Assembly: GCA_027486655.1 (NCBI GenBank) | Contig: JAIXOR010000027.1 | Coordinates: 1 to 64,000, forward strand | Reading direction: 5' to 3' | DNA from: Verrucomicrobiaceae bacterium | GTDB taxonomy: Bacteria > Verrucomicrobiota > Verrucomicrobiia > Verrucomicrobiales > Akkermansiaceae | Length of the DNA: 64,000 nucleotides | Shown here: positions 1-7,239 of the stretch, piece after piece | Layout of the letters: each line of letters opens with the position of its first letter | Position numbering within the stretch: the stretch's first letter is position 1 | Program-made: the position numbers and the translations under genes | Notes under the pieces: model-generated | What the model saw: the letters and a program-made list of their open reading frames with translations, nothing else | What the model was told of the DNA's origin: nothing | Databases searched by the model: none

Positions 1-860
1 GGTAACGCATGACTTCCTTGAGGGTGCTGTGGCCGAGGTAGGCGGCGACTTGACGGACCGAGGCTCCGCCTTCGAGCATGTGGGTGCCATAACTGTGGCG
101 CAGGGTGTGAGGAGTGAGCAGTTCGTGCTTTTTGGATAGACCGCACTCGGCTTTGGCGACCTTGATGGCAGACCAGACGGCGGATTTGTTCATCGGCTGC
201 GAGCAGCGGTGCATGGCCTGGCGCAAGGTGATGCCGGATGATTTCCACCCGCGGCCCACGCCGGGGAAGAGCCAATGGGGGTTCCGGTGAAAGGCATAGA
301 ACTTGCGCAGGCGGCGGAGGAGTTTGGGAGTGATGGGAACTTCGCGTGCCTTGTGGTTCTTGGTCTTGGGGATGTAAATGACGAGTCGTTCGCCGTTGAT
401 GTGACGGGGCTTGATGGCAAGTGCCTCGCTGATGCGCAGGCCGCATTGATAGAGGACGGTGAAGAAGGCCCGGTAGCGCCCGTCGCGGAAGGTTCGCAGC
501 AGCAGGGCAATCTCGTCACGAGTCAGGACGTGGGGAAGCGGTTCCTCGCGTTTGATGTGGATCTTTTTCCAAACATCCCAGTCGAGCCCGAGGTGGTCGC
601 GGTAAAGGGTGCGCAGTCCGCAGACGGCTTGATTGACGGTGGCCGGCGCGAGCTTGCGGTCGTTCTGGAGGTGGACGAGAAAATCGAGCACGCGGGCCGG
701 TGGCAGATCGGGAAGCTCGTCATCCGGGTAGTGGGTGTCGAGTTGATGGACCCAGCCGTGGTAGCTCTGCCGGCTCCGCTCGGAGAGACCTTTGAGCTGG
801 ACGAAGCGGGTGAAGTCCTGATACCAAGGAGCCGACGTGAGTGCGTTATCTTTTTTTCAT
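1..860 (-). CDS. Tyrosine recombinase (integrase), 3' end beyond window, start out of frame
   Basis: Site-specific DNA strand exchange enzyme. About 286 residues are visible: an N-terminal SAM-like core-binding domain (about 10-95) and a catalytic domain with Arg142 (CGLRISEA), the basic beta-2/3 region (PKTKNHKAREVPI), H251/R254 (PHTLRHSYGTHMLE), H277 (YLGH) and the probable nucleophile Tyr286 as the last whole codon. The stretch HRNPHWLFPG with a following QPMNKSAV region resembles integrases that accompany IS91-type transposases; the extra patch of integron IntI is not evident. Reading from the only ATG (858-860), a run of seven A residues puts TAA in frame at codon 5; with six A the product reads MKKDNALTSAPW and continues open to base 1. 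It is therefore frameshifted, slippage-dependent or a sequencing indel. It points away from the cassette-like genes at 1083-3321. Confidence 0.85.
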
Positions 861-932
861 AGACGTAAACAGGATGAACGCTCACGTCACCCCTTTCAAC
901 GCCGAAACAAGGAGTCGCCGCACAGCGGCTCT

Positions 933-1061
933 GTTCAACAAGTAGCGGCATGACAACCCCGATCAGCCGCCCAGTTTTCATGCCCACCCCACGCCATAAC
1001 TCCAACCCCGCGTCCACCGCCCGCCCCCGCTGATCGGGGTGCATGCGCTTTGGCGTTCGGT
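933..1061 (+). repeat. attC-like recombination site A (imperfect inverted repeat)
   Basis: Starts with GTTCAAC (933-939, fits the attC R'' consensus RYYYAAC) and ends with GTTCGGT (1055-1061). Inside, CCCCGATCAGC (957-967) is perfectly complementary to GCTGATCGGGG (1029-1039). Pairing continues outward with unpaired bases (GCGgCATGaCA against TGCATGCGC), as in folded attC sites. The 129 bp span is within the attC size range. It lies between the recombinase start and the first secreted-protein gene. The R' box deviates from GTTRRRY at its fourth base. The end of an IS91-like element is the main alternative. Confidence 0.5.
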
Positions 1062-1082
1062 AAAACAATCTCAATAACGATT

Positions 1083-1775
1083 ATGAAATTCCTACTTTTG
1101 CCGATAATCACTGCTCTTATTTCAATCTCTGCCAGGGGCGATGGACTCCCATTCGATCCAGAAACGCAGCTTGTTTCAGTGCCCTCTCTTCGACTCAAGC
1201 TGAATTCGGAGCAGATCAAAGAGATTTCATCGAAGGGCATCTTAACGTTTGACAGTGAGCAACTTCAATTGGTGAAACTTCTTTATCCTGCAGCAACCAG
1301 CCGCACCCAAGTGGTAGCTGCTACTTTCAACGATAATACGGAAGGATGGCAGACGCCGTGTTTTTGGGTCGCGCCAGATGAAGTAGCCATCACAATAGAT
1401 AAGAATCACCCTAAAGATAAATCGCCTTTTTCAGAGGTAGACAGTCCATTATTCCCATCAGAGGAGGAGCTTGAAAAATCCTCGGAACGTTTCATTCGCC
1501 TCAGTCCCGAGGGGGCTATTTTCTTCAGGGGTGAAGAAATCACTCTTTTGCAAGCCTTCCGACTTATCGACGATCTTGCGAACTACATGAAATCTAACCC
1601 TACTTTGGGCGAAAACAAAAATCACGGGACACTTTTAGTCACGATCCCGCCACCTCGCTCTAAGAGCGAAGAAGAGCATGACCGTGGACAAGGGCAGCTG
1701 TCTCCAAGGCAAATTTTTGAAGCCCTGGTCGTTTATGGAAAATCGAAGTCGATTGGTGTCGGCAATTCTTGGTAA
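1083..1775 (+). CDS. Secreted hypothetical protein, cassette-like gene 1
   Basis: A 230-residue protein of unknown function. I chose the ATG at 1083 because it gives a clean signal peptide (MKFLLLPIITALISISARG); earlier in-frame codons would put an unlikely stretch before it. The mature part is mixed alpha/beta. Its last third has a pattern (SPEGAIFFRGEEITL, then TLLVTIPP, then QIFEALVVYGKSKSIGVGN) vaguely like the periplasmic fold of ExbD/TolR-type proteins, but no transmembrane anchor follows that plan. Base composition is clearly lower in GC than the flanking chromosome. It is the first of three same-strand genes separated by inverted-repeat sites, each lacking an obvious ribosome binding site, which is typical of integron cassette genes. 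Confidence 0.65.
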   Translation: MKFLLLPIITALISISARGDGLPFDPETQLVSVPSLRLKLNSEQIKEISSKGILTFDSEQLQLVKLLYPAATSRTQVVAATFNDNTEGWQTPCFWVAPDEVAITIDKNHPKDKSPFSEVDSPLFPSEEELEKSSERFIRLSPEGAIFFRGEEITLLQAFRLIDDLANYMKSNPTLGENKNHGTLLVTIPPPRSKSEEEHDRGQGQLSPRQIFEALVVYGKSKSIGVGNSW

Positions 1776-1791
1776 GCCAAGCAGCCAGGAT

Positions 1792-1880
1792 TCCGAACCA
1801 GACGCTACGTCCTACGGCGGGTAACGCTCCAGTTTGAATTCAGGCTTCCTTCCCCGCCTTGGATGAGCTAGACGTTGGGC
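1792..1880 (+). repeat. attC-like recombination site B (best of the three)
   Basis: The left end TCCGAAC (1792-1798) pairs imperfectly with the right end GTTGGGC (1874-1880, exact GTTRRRY consensus). Inner arms pair in the order expected of an attC stem: GCTnnnTCC against GGATGAGC, GGCGGG against CCCGCC, and a central palindrome TGAATTCA. Bulged bases lie between the paired blocks. The site starts 16 bases after the stop of gene 1 and ends just before the ATG of gene 2, the usual layout of cassette junctions. Confidence 0.55.
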
Positions 1881-1883
1881 CAC

Positions 1884-2573
1884 ATGCATATGACACGAAT
1901 TCCAATTACTTTTGCCTTGGCAATATCTCTGTCTGGATTCTGTTCGGCGGATTTGGAATCTGCCAATGGCGAGGTCAACGCCTTGTTGTCGAGAGCAGCA
2001 CAAAATCAAGAAGACTTTGATGCGCGCGGGCAACTGGCCTCCCTATGTAGTAAGTTTCCAGGAATATTCAGCGAGCTTATCCTCAAGGAGCCCGACAAGA
2101 CAAAGCGTTGGATGGCAGTTTACGCGGTGCGGATGTCGGGCCAGACCAAATGTGACAAGGCGCTGATTGCTGTTTTCAATGACGCCAAGGAATCTCAAGA
2201 ATTACGAATTCAGATCATGATGGCTCTGGTGCAAGCTGACAACCTTATGAAGGACAGACTGCGGCCATTTCTTGCCGGATTACACTTGTTGATCAAGGAG
2301 TCTCCGAAGCCAAGTGATCTTGAAATAGCAATCGATCTTTCCGGTTCTATTGGTGACAAGTCATCTTTACCCTTTCTGGTTCCTCTGCTGGACGACAACA
2401 AAGTCCATTCATACACAGTTGACGACAACGGCCAGAAGGTGCCCAACACATTGAGTAAATCGGCATACGCGGCCCTACTGCAAATCACTGGGCGAAATGA
2501 CATCCCTCAAGATCGCCAAGCTTGGAAGGAGTTCCAAGAAGCCCAAAAAGTTGTGCCTGCTAATGGGCCATAA
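1884..2573 (+). CDS. Secreted HEAT-like hypothetical protein, cassette-like gene 2
   Basis: A protein of about 229 residues; ATG at 1884 or 1890, both giving a signal peptide (MTRIPITFALAISLSGFCSA). The mature region is almost all helical with recurring amphipathic pairs (TKRWMAVYAVRMSG, ELRIQIMMALVQ, SLPFLVPLLDD, SKSAYAALLQITG), which is how short HEAT/armadillo-like scaffolds look. No catalytic motif is visible. The ATG lies 4 to 10 bases after the right box of attC-like site B and there is no Shine-Dalgarno sequence. Codon use is AT-richer than that of the neighbours at 3522 and beyond. The role is unknown; protein binding in the periplasm is the best guess from the fold pattern. Confidence 0.65.
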   Translation: MHMTRIPITFALAISLSGFCSADLESANGEVNALLSRAAQNQEDFDARGQLASLCSKFPGIFSELILKEPDKTKRWMAVYAVRMSGQTKCDKALIAVFNDAKESQELRIQIMMALVQADNLMKDRLRPFLAGLHLLIKESPKPSDLEIAIDLSGSIGDKSSLPFLVPLLDDNKVHSYTVDDNGQKVPNTLSKSAYAALLQITGRNDIPQDRQAWKEFQEAQKVVPANGP

Positions 2574-2635
2574 GCAACTCAAACGCATTTCATAATCCAC
2601 CCAATCGCTCCCGTAGGAGCAATCAATCGTTCGGC
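2572..2635 (+). repeat. Degenerate attC-like site C
   Basis: A short perfect hairpin GCTCC-CGTA-GGAGC (2607-2620) followed by CGTTCGGC (2628-2635), nine bases before the start of cassette-like gene 3. A matching left box is not clear; AGCAAC near 2573 is the only weak candidate. It is supported mainly by sharing the CGTTSGGY end and position with sites A and B. Confidence 0.35.
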
Positions 2636-2643
2636 AGGAAATC

Positions 2644-3321
2644 ATGCAGCTCTCATTCTGTTGTCTTACGCTAATACTGCTCTCGATTACATCCTGTCGA
2701 GATGTGGCGCATGGCGACACCGCTGGTAGGAATCCACCTGTTCAGTTGGCCTTTCCGAATGGTATTTCGTGGAAGGCAGTTTTCGACGCTGGCTTTCGCC
2801 CAAAGCATCTTCCCGGTCTGGAGAGGAAGAAGGCAGAATGTGTTGATCAGGGAGTCATGTTCACGTTCCGTCAACAGCCTGGATTTGAATTGGACAAGGG
2901 ACGATTGATGTTCGAGCTGCAGAGTGACGACAGCATCAGGATAATCGAGGACGTCAGCCGTGTGCCTATTTCGATGGAAGATGCGGAGAAGCGCTTGAAG
3001 GCATTCCACGCATTGTTTGCCAGTGAACTACGCAAGAAAGGATCTGTGCCCCCTTTGATGGATAAGGCTCGTGGTGGCGTGATGGCGCTTTCTGACTACT
3101 ACGCGATGGCAGAAGACGAAGGCTACACTATCCACTACGGATTTACGGGATCCTTTCAGCCGAAGACTCCTCTTCTTCCTGTTTTCATGATCGCATTGCG
3201 GCACAGTATGAAAGCTCCGCCGCTGCCAATTCGACGGAAGGTGGTCGAGCCGCCAGCGGGTTACGAATGGTATAGTCTTGATCCTAAGGTGAGCACGCCC
3301 GATCCAAAACCACCAAAATAG
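2644..3321 (+). CDS. Putative lipoprotein, cassette-like gene 3
   Basis: A 225-residue protein with a lipoprotein signal peptide: a hydrophobic stretch from residue 5, then the lipobox ITSC with Cys18 as the likely lipidated residue. The mature part is mixed alpha/beta (FELDKGRLMFELQSDD, ISMEDAEKRLKAFHALF) with a proline-rich end (PDPKPPK). No family was recognised. The start lies nine bases after attC-like site C. Like its two upstream neighbours it is AT-richer than the chromosome and encodes an exported protein, so the three look like one imported set. No fourth junction site is seen after its stop. Confidence 0.65.
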   Translation: MQLSFCCLTLILLSITSCRDVAHGDTAGRNPPVQLAFPNGISWKAVFDAGFRPKHLPGLERKKAECVDQGVMFTFRQQPGFELDKGRLMFELQSDDSIRIIEDVSRVPISMEDAEKRLKAFHALFASELRKKGSVPPLMDKARGGVMALSDYYAMAEDEGYTIHYGFTGSFQPKTPLLPVFMIALRHSMKAPPLPIRRKVVEPPAGYEWYSLDPKVSTPDPKPPK

Positions 3322-3331
3322 AATTCAAGCC

Positions 3332-3466
3332 TCACTTTTCAGCCATCCAAAAGGCAAAACAAATGCCGAAGACGACGTGGGTGGCAACGGCGGGTAAGAG
3401 GGATTGGAGGAATGGATCCAGGGTGCGGTTCAGCCAGTGAATCCGCCGTGCAGCCAATCCGTGTTG
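3332..3466 (-). pseudogene. Possible 3' remnant of a membrane protein gene
   Basis: On the minus strand this stretch reads IHWLNRTLDPFLQ, then SLLPAVATHVVFGICFAF and WMAEK before a stop at 3332. That is one convincing transmembrane helix with a charged tail. No start or upstream domain of its own exists, because the frame runs back into the photolyase gene. It could be a gene end left when the cassette-like block was inserted, or chance. The remainder of the gap up to 3521 shows nothing else. Confidence 0.25.
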
Positions 3467-3521
3467 GGATGGGTGGTGAGGGGAGGGGAGCCCTCCGAGA
3501 TGTGAGATCGGGAATTGGCGA

Positions 3522-7111: not shown

Positions 7112-7141
7112 TCCCCGGTTCAGGAACCTGAACATCCTCAA

Positions 7142-7174
7142 AACCGCCTGTGCCCCGTGCGCAGGCGGTTTTTT
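7142..7174 (+). terminator. Intrinsic terminator of rpoA-rplQ
   Basis: AACCGCCTG (7142-7150) pairs with CAGGCGGTT (7162-7170), and the stem runs into six T residues. It lies 31 bases after the rplQ stop. Confidence 0.85.
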
Positions 7175-7239
7175 CGTGGGGTGGAGGTTTTCCGAGATCG
7201 GCATGGTGATCGGGCGCGGGATCGGCTAGGTTGGCGGCC

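Follow-up and report, generated by a model that had tools for sequence, protein, structure and literature searches.

The window analyzed here is a stretch of 64,000 nucleotides that begins at base 1 of contig C74 in a genome of 5.33 Mb and 87 contigs. Its left segment holds part of a tyrosine recombinase gene, three short cassette genes and a series of attC sites (Table 1), and is followed downstream by a photolyase gene and then rpoA. Neither Rfam, searched at gathering thresholds, nor a tRNA scan had any match in the window.

Table 1. Features at the left end of the window, with window coordinates.
Feature	Coordinates	Strand	Description
terIS-side part of IS91-family element	1..939	-	identical in C74, C28 and C55 up to GTTCAACAAG; complete relatives carry the recombinase gene, then an IS91 transposase gene
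Accessory tyrosine recombinase of IS91-like element	2..860	-	C-terminus cut by contig end
terIS end	911..939	-	G+C-rich stem-loop and GTTCAAC, doubling as R'' box of attC A
attC site A	933..1061 (129 bp)	+	R'' GTTCAAC supplied by IS; R' GTTCGGT 1055-1061; models R2 and R3, covariation
Cassette gene 1	1083..1775	+	230 aa exported protein, function unassigned; signal-like N-terminus (by eye), no confident Pfam family
attC site B	1792..1880	+	R'' TCCGAAC 1792-1798, R' GTTGGGC 1874-1880; R1 101.9 bits
Cassette gene 2	1890..2573, alternative start 1884	+	227 aa exported protein; weak HEAT-repeat similarity; signal-like N-terminus
attC site C	2578..2635 (short, 58 bp)	+	R' GTTCGGC 2629-2635; weaker, E about 0.1 in local search
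Cassette gene 3	2644..3321	+	225 aa putative lipoprotein; no Pfam match
Possible degenerate attC D	3369..3469	+	right end of array; R1 12.8 bits, E=0.019, unfiltered local search; tentative

Cassette genes

The initial annotation had described three same-strand, AT-richer genes with export signals, and all three are present: their GC contents are 47%, 48% and 52% (genes 1, 2 and 3) against 63% for the window, and their N-termini are hydrophobic by eye. The boxes proposed for them, CGTTCGGT (1054-1061), CGTTGGGC (1873-1880) and CGTTCGGC (2628-2635), each lie shortly 5' of a start codon. The HEAT_2 match of gene 2 (E=3.6e-4) is below the cut-off, and gene 3 starts with a lipobox-like LLSITSC (by eye). 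The claim of exported products extends to the genome at large, because a strongly hydrophobic start was found in 16 of the 25 open reading frames scored behind its attC sites, by a crude scoring in which at least one frame, the one behind the doubtful site D, does not represent a genuine cassette gene.

The cassettes vary among relatives. Homologues of gene 1 occur in 8/288 other genomes of the order and those of gene 3 in 6/288, both together in none, and at the 19 same-genus photolyase loci examined the models gave no attC match and the downstream gene differs from one to another. Conservation of the genes and their spacers together in all relatives, named beforehand as evidence against an array, is thus absent, since genes 1 and 3 are patchy and the conserved photolyase-rpoA neighborhood of those 19 relatives is cassette-free.

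attC sites of the array

Three covariance models were built: R1 from copies of site B, R2 from copies of site A, and R3 only from attCs that touch no insertion sequence (IS). They revealed more than 20 sites in clusters on eight contigs of the source genome (C24, C28, C31, C55, C57, C76, C6 and C74), often at contig ends. At E<1e-5, R1 matched 11 places and R2 matched 9, model-building sites counted in; the best E-values of further places for the site B and site A models ranged from 1e-26 to 1e-15. Site B carries the attC boxes claimed for it around the centre TGAATTCA and has five close copies elsewhere in the genome, and site C has a relative at C76:26462-26540.

Across 29 aligned sites, compensatory double changes were found in 23 of the 25 stem pairs, and the covariation score, from an alignment fitted to the model, was 0.58; shuffling lowered it to 0.16, and slid pairings reached no more than 0.12. 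Folded singly and compared with shuffles, the sites did not reach significance, and the structural case therefore depends on covariation. R1 or R2 also matched near integrases (IntI) above the TIGR02249 cut-off at seven loci in relatives (L027, L029, L030, L031, L033, L034 and L036). The cassette-array claim is supported by these matches to attCs beside true IntI genes. The boxes GTTCGGT, GTTGGGC and GTTCGGC are loose relative to the RYYYAAC/GTTRRRY type. The locus has the features of an array of attC sites: at least two with a conserved fold, cassettes that vary among relatives, and an attC type found beside true IntI.

The prediction for site A stood in part. Its perfect 11 bp stem (957-967/1029-1039) is present and GTTCAAC does lie at 933-939, but this left box is the end of an IS. 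The cassette to which site A belongs has its gene on the far side of the IS element. A type-A hairpin belonging to the IS itself was also considered, and is excluded by intact IS-free type-A sites and by the different hairpins found behind identical IS ends.

An IS91-family element at the array edge

The IS copies on C74, C28 and C55 are identical over more than 100 bp and end in CCGCACAGCGGCTCTGTTCAACAAG; at GTTCAACAAG their sequences part abruptly, each running into a different attC. On C6, a distant IS with the terminus GCGTAGCGGCTTAGTTCAACAAG borders a fourth attC at that same point, where intact attCs of the same type read TCCGAACAAG. GTTCAAC at 933-939, which falls within the R'' box of attC A, forms the end of the window element. 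The stem-loop and GTTCAAC terminus recurs in about 25 relatives with differing flanks.

On C6, a recombinase homologue is followed by an IS91-family transposase gene of the HUH/Y2 type (NF033538 337 bits, PF04986 155 bits, PF14319). This is the only such gene in the assembly, and the transposase of the window element was not found there. Judging from relatives whose recombinases are 65-67% identical, that transposase and the oriIS end would lie beyond base 1, off the contig. The order recombinase, then IS91 transposase holds in 10/10 relatives with a complete recombinase region. On the oriIS side, complete elements show an RYYYAAC-like flank and then a hairpin (AATAAAGGGTG, CCTCAAGTTAG, CCCAAAGATAG). 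These flanks end in AAC in all 11 complete elements; the right ends are GTTCAAC, mostly followed by an attC, and the AAC triplet is the only sequence common to both junctions. The oriIS and terIS ends, the target tetranucleotide and the lack of a target duplication, all typical of the IS91 family, were found in the 11 elements and in a plasmid copy described below. At L074 (4380-4570, genome G027), three tandem copies of the oriIS hairpin end adjoin an element, as if from repeated insertion or failed termination.

Junctions in relatives and on plasmids

The same insertion point recurs in complete genomes. In G566, five copies of one element, including a truncated one, sit at attCs. G348 has five right and seven left ends of one element at successive attCs, with a cassette gene between them, and in G488 a second IS copy sits inside the box made by the end of the first. 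The crossover falls inside the A(A/T)C triplet, because the right-hand triplet in G566 follows each attC's own R' (ATC with GAT, AAC with GTT) in 4/5 copies. The attCs of G472, G495, L092, L147 and a Salinivibrio plasmid were called by inspection, without a model score, and a clear attC was not seen at the terIS end of the same-clade elements G123, G048 and L087. The G348 array (L225; G348:C1:2470000-2483500), in which single cassette genes stand between IS-occupied attCs, would make a useful experimental system. IS110-type transposase genes also occur in or beside arrays, at L018 (C28) 2010-3152 and near a terIS junction at L224 (G348).

The Escherichia coli IncC plasmid RCS41_p carries a related gene pair between aadA1 and qacEdelta1 in a class 1 integron. 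Its junctions read GGCAAATAATGTCTAAC/AAATAAGGATAGGCCGCG on one side and GCGGCTTCGTTCAAC/AATTCGTTCAAGCCGACGCCGC...GCGTTAGATGC on the other. The aadA1 attC is split as TAATGTCTAAC, then the element ending in GTTCAAC, then AATTCGTTCAAGCCGACGCC...GCGTTAGATGC, that is, at GTCTAAC/AATTCG in R'', and the R'' box at the split is rebuilt by the IS. At ≥99% identity, no fewer than 1,880 plasmids have the undivided aadA1 site, whereas the element is in that one plasmid record only. By inspection, the Salinivibrio plasmid shows the same IS-in-attC arrangement; in a Photobacterium ganghwense plasmid copy the insertion site is not an attC.

These junctions bear on the reading that the IS91 genes are a gene cassette captured by IntI, with site A as their own attC. 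The cassette order, an attC after the genes, agrees with that reading, and so does the description of ISShvi3 of a Shewanella integron, said to form a new cassette structure (PMC9229058). In RCS41_p, however, the attC behind the IS is that of aadA1 and the R'' end of the same attC stands before the IS; the IS split an existing site, since both flanks derive from one attC. Different attCs also stand behind identical IS copies, and the IS ends are conserved beyond the genes on both sides. We regard a captured cassette as very improbable and reject it on the RCS41_p junctions.

Of about 30 IS junctions, 18 coincide exactly with the start of a match to the IS-free model R3 (E<0.01 in 15 cases); the chance of an exact start is about 0.001 per junction. 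At the junctions of 11 related elements with other termini R3 started in 0/11, and in the photolyase loci it gave one weak match (E 0.17), away from any junction. R3 replaced an energy-only arm-pairing test, which had separated the attC-clade set (combined p = 7e-9) from control elements (0.36) but is biased by GC content and weak for individual sites. A single branch of the recombinase tree (support 93/79) sets the attC-associated elements apart on one side, with one character change for attC association compared with 9.8 in shuffles. That side holds Verrucomicrobiota, Endozoicomonas, a gammaproteobacterial metagenome-assembled genome and Fimbriimonadaceae; elements with different ends, from Sphingobium, Mesorhizobium, Devosia, Bosea and others, make up the other.

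If the IS had no site preference and took any GAAC- or CAAG-like tetranucleotide as IS801 does, arrays would merely tolerate its insertions. Some clade members do lie away from attC, the R'' boxes of attCs contain NAAC, and the IS91 family is known to use targets such as GAAC, GGAC, CAAG and CGAC, with a left end homologous to the target (PMC3189936). Yet AAC is ubiquitous and most insertions fall at a single attC R'' position in one orientation, whereas mere tolerance would permit insertions elsewhere between cassettes or in the opposite orientation; sister elements with other termini, moreover, lack attC. We therefore consider indifference to the site improbable. The left segment of the window is very probably the edge of an integron cassette array, broken by an attC-specific IS91-family element. 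At the sequence level, the comparisons establish the anatomy of this element, the exact point and orientation of insertion, the restored R'' box, the empty site and the recurrence across phyla.

The recombinase gene and the search for intI

The recombinase had been claimed to be divergent from the cassette genes, which is correct, and to stand to them as intI does in integrons, which did not hold up. The encoded protein belongs to the tyrosine recombinases (PF00589 105 bits, PF13495 57 bits), and the catalytic R-K-H-R-H-Y residues are intact in the alignment. Read as a self-contained small integron, the locus would have in this gene the integrase that captured the three cassettes; its divergent position beside attC-like sites and the integron integrase as its best-scoring family fit that proposal. 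The score against TIGR02249, at 130 bits, is nevertheless far under the cut-off of 265, compared with 335-412 for the IntIs of relatives, and the IntI-specific insertion motif is absent from the alignment. Site A is an attC and not an attI, relatives of the recombinase precede an IS91 transposase, and identical copies occur at several separate attCs. As it stands, this proposal is refuted by these results, and we hold it to be extremely improbable.

In the usual integron layout, intI is divergent from the cassettes. Divergence is no argument for intI in this group, because intI is co-directional with the array in 7/7 of the relatives' IntI loci at which the models found attCs. A recombinase gene next to an attC array is not evidence of IntI. 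G162 (L079) does have a divergent IntI (344.7 bits), and the same contig also carries an attC and an inserted IS. No complete intI and no attI was seen on C74. The only IntI pieces elsewhere in the genome are two near-identical C-terminal fragments of a true IntI that start contigs C31 (L019, 2-145; TIGR02249 68.8 bits) and C86 (L026, 2-214; 105.7 bits), the remainder of which is missing from the assembly, probably as a collapsed repeat.

Several further observations concern these genes. At L083, as at the seven loci in relatives listed above, the array lies behind the 3' end of a co-directional intI. The likely start of the window recombinase, ATG at 858-860, is followed by a run of seven A and is then one base out of frame (844-860). 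The same offset after six or seven A was seen in the identical copy on C28 (C28:1-60) and in G157, G295 and G032 (L075, L085 and L083), and slippage in transcription or translation possibly controls the recombinase. A second copy of the last 40 codons of the recombinase in the window lies at L020 (C31) 7115-7233; its 119 bases are common to window positions 1-119 and then join abruptly to different sequence, and either truncation of an IS copy or a fork in the assembly may explain it.

Proposed mechanism

An attC is recombined as a folded single strand. In the explanation we favor, the element combines a tyrosine-recombinase gene with an IS91 (HUH, Y2) transposase gene and is bounded by an oriIS hairpin at one end and, at the other, by a terIS stem-loop whose last bases are GTTCAAC. 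Its insertions at attC share one orientation and fall in the R'' box, at the A(A/T)C triplet. The target RYYYAAC remains at the oriIS side, and the GTTCAAC of the element, itself an RYYYAAC, takes its place before the rest of the attC. The cassette gene is separated from its attC, yet a consensus attC is rebuilt, and the IS should therefore be carried along as cargo whenever IntI moves the cassette.

IS91-type transposases move single strands by a rolling circle (PMC5714925), and rolling-circle transposition would be the process of insertion here. The attC hairpin would be the recognised form, with the transposase inserting its strand after the RYYYAAC of the exposed hairpin. The restored attC is predicted to be functional, so that gene, IS and attC would be movable together by IntI. 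The tyrosine recombinase may target, resolve or assist.

A variant of this explanation would have the accessory recombinase, and not the HUH transposase, integrate at attC as IntI does. The junction lies in A(A/T)C, the integron crossover triplet, and follows the attC's own R' in the G566 copies noted above; the catalytic residues are intact, and no named family is closer to the protein than the integron integrase. Sister elements that share both genes but end differently, however, make no use of attC, and the ends of the element resemble IS91 ori and ter with their hairpins. We think this variant unlikely, if a serious contender. Also unlikely, and somewhat more doubtful, is a composite element in which an IntI-related recombinase directs or performs integration at the attC triplet and cassette-like excision while the rolling-circle transposase replicates. 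This lineage of elements makes it testable which enzyme reads the attC hairpin.

Comparison with known systems

The gene capture behind multi-resistance relies mainly on integrons, and few attC invaders are known to us: IS1111-attC elements and attC-targeting group II introns. An IS91-type lineage that lands in attC and rebuilds its consensus can spread through arrays without destroying them and travel inside cassettes, and one-ended transposition could take neighboring cassettes along. We found this lineage in Verrucomicrobiota, Gammaproteobacteria and Armatimonadota; the class 1 integron on the E. coli resistance plasmid provides a single case.

Like sedentary chromosomal integrons and CALINs, the source genome has attC-bounded cassette arrays with many exported proteins, spread over several contigs, and IntI C-terminal fragments at C31 and C86. 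Unlike in those systems, the array edge on C74 is occupied by an IS, with no complete intI or attI visible on the contig. The IS1111-attC group of the IS110/IS1111 family likewise comprises insertion sequences that specifically target attC, and its invasion of attC sites is documented (PMC11187229, PMC9229058). Those elements use an RNA-guided DEDD transposase (PMC11187229), an unrelated enzyme with another mode of insertion; the transposase here is of the IS91 type and not DEDD.

Two IS91-like elements come closer. ISShvi3 adjoins an attC in a cassette array but, unlike the present clade, is a single case; PMC9229058 reports no IS interrupting an attC, and the sections consulted describe neither the exact site nor how general it is. 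ISCR28 in sul4 modules has attC sites at its end or directly after it, and its authors weighed attC as a possible target; by that description it resembles the present clade, although the sections of the report consulted give no junction or R'' rule (PMC12772301). Single IS91-like elements next to attC were thus already known from ISShvi3 and ISCR28. What appears new, as we found no description of it in the open-licence literature, is the exact insertion site, the rebuilt R'' box and the clade-wide rule. With the IS91 family (IS91, IS801, ISCR), the element shares the transposase (NF033538, PF04986, PF14319), an oriIS hairpin, a G+C-rich terIS stem-loop and an NAAC-type target tetranucleotide kept at the oriIS side without a long target duplication. 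It differs from that family in carrying an upstream tyrosine recombinase gene, inserting at one attC position and restoring the R'' box.
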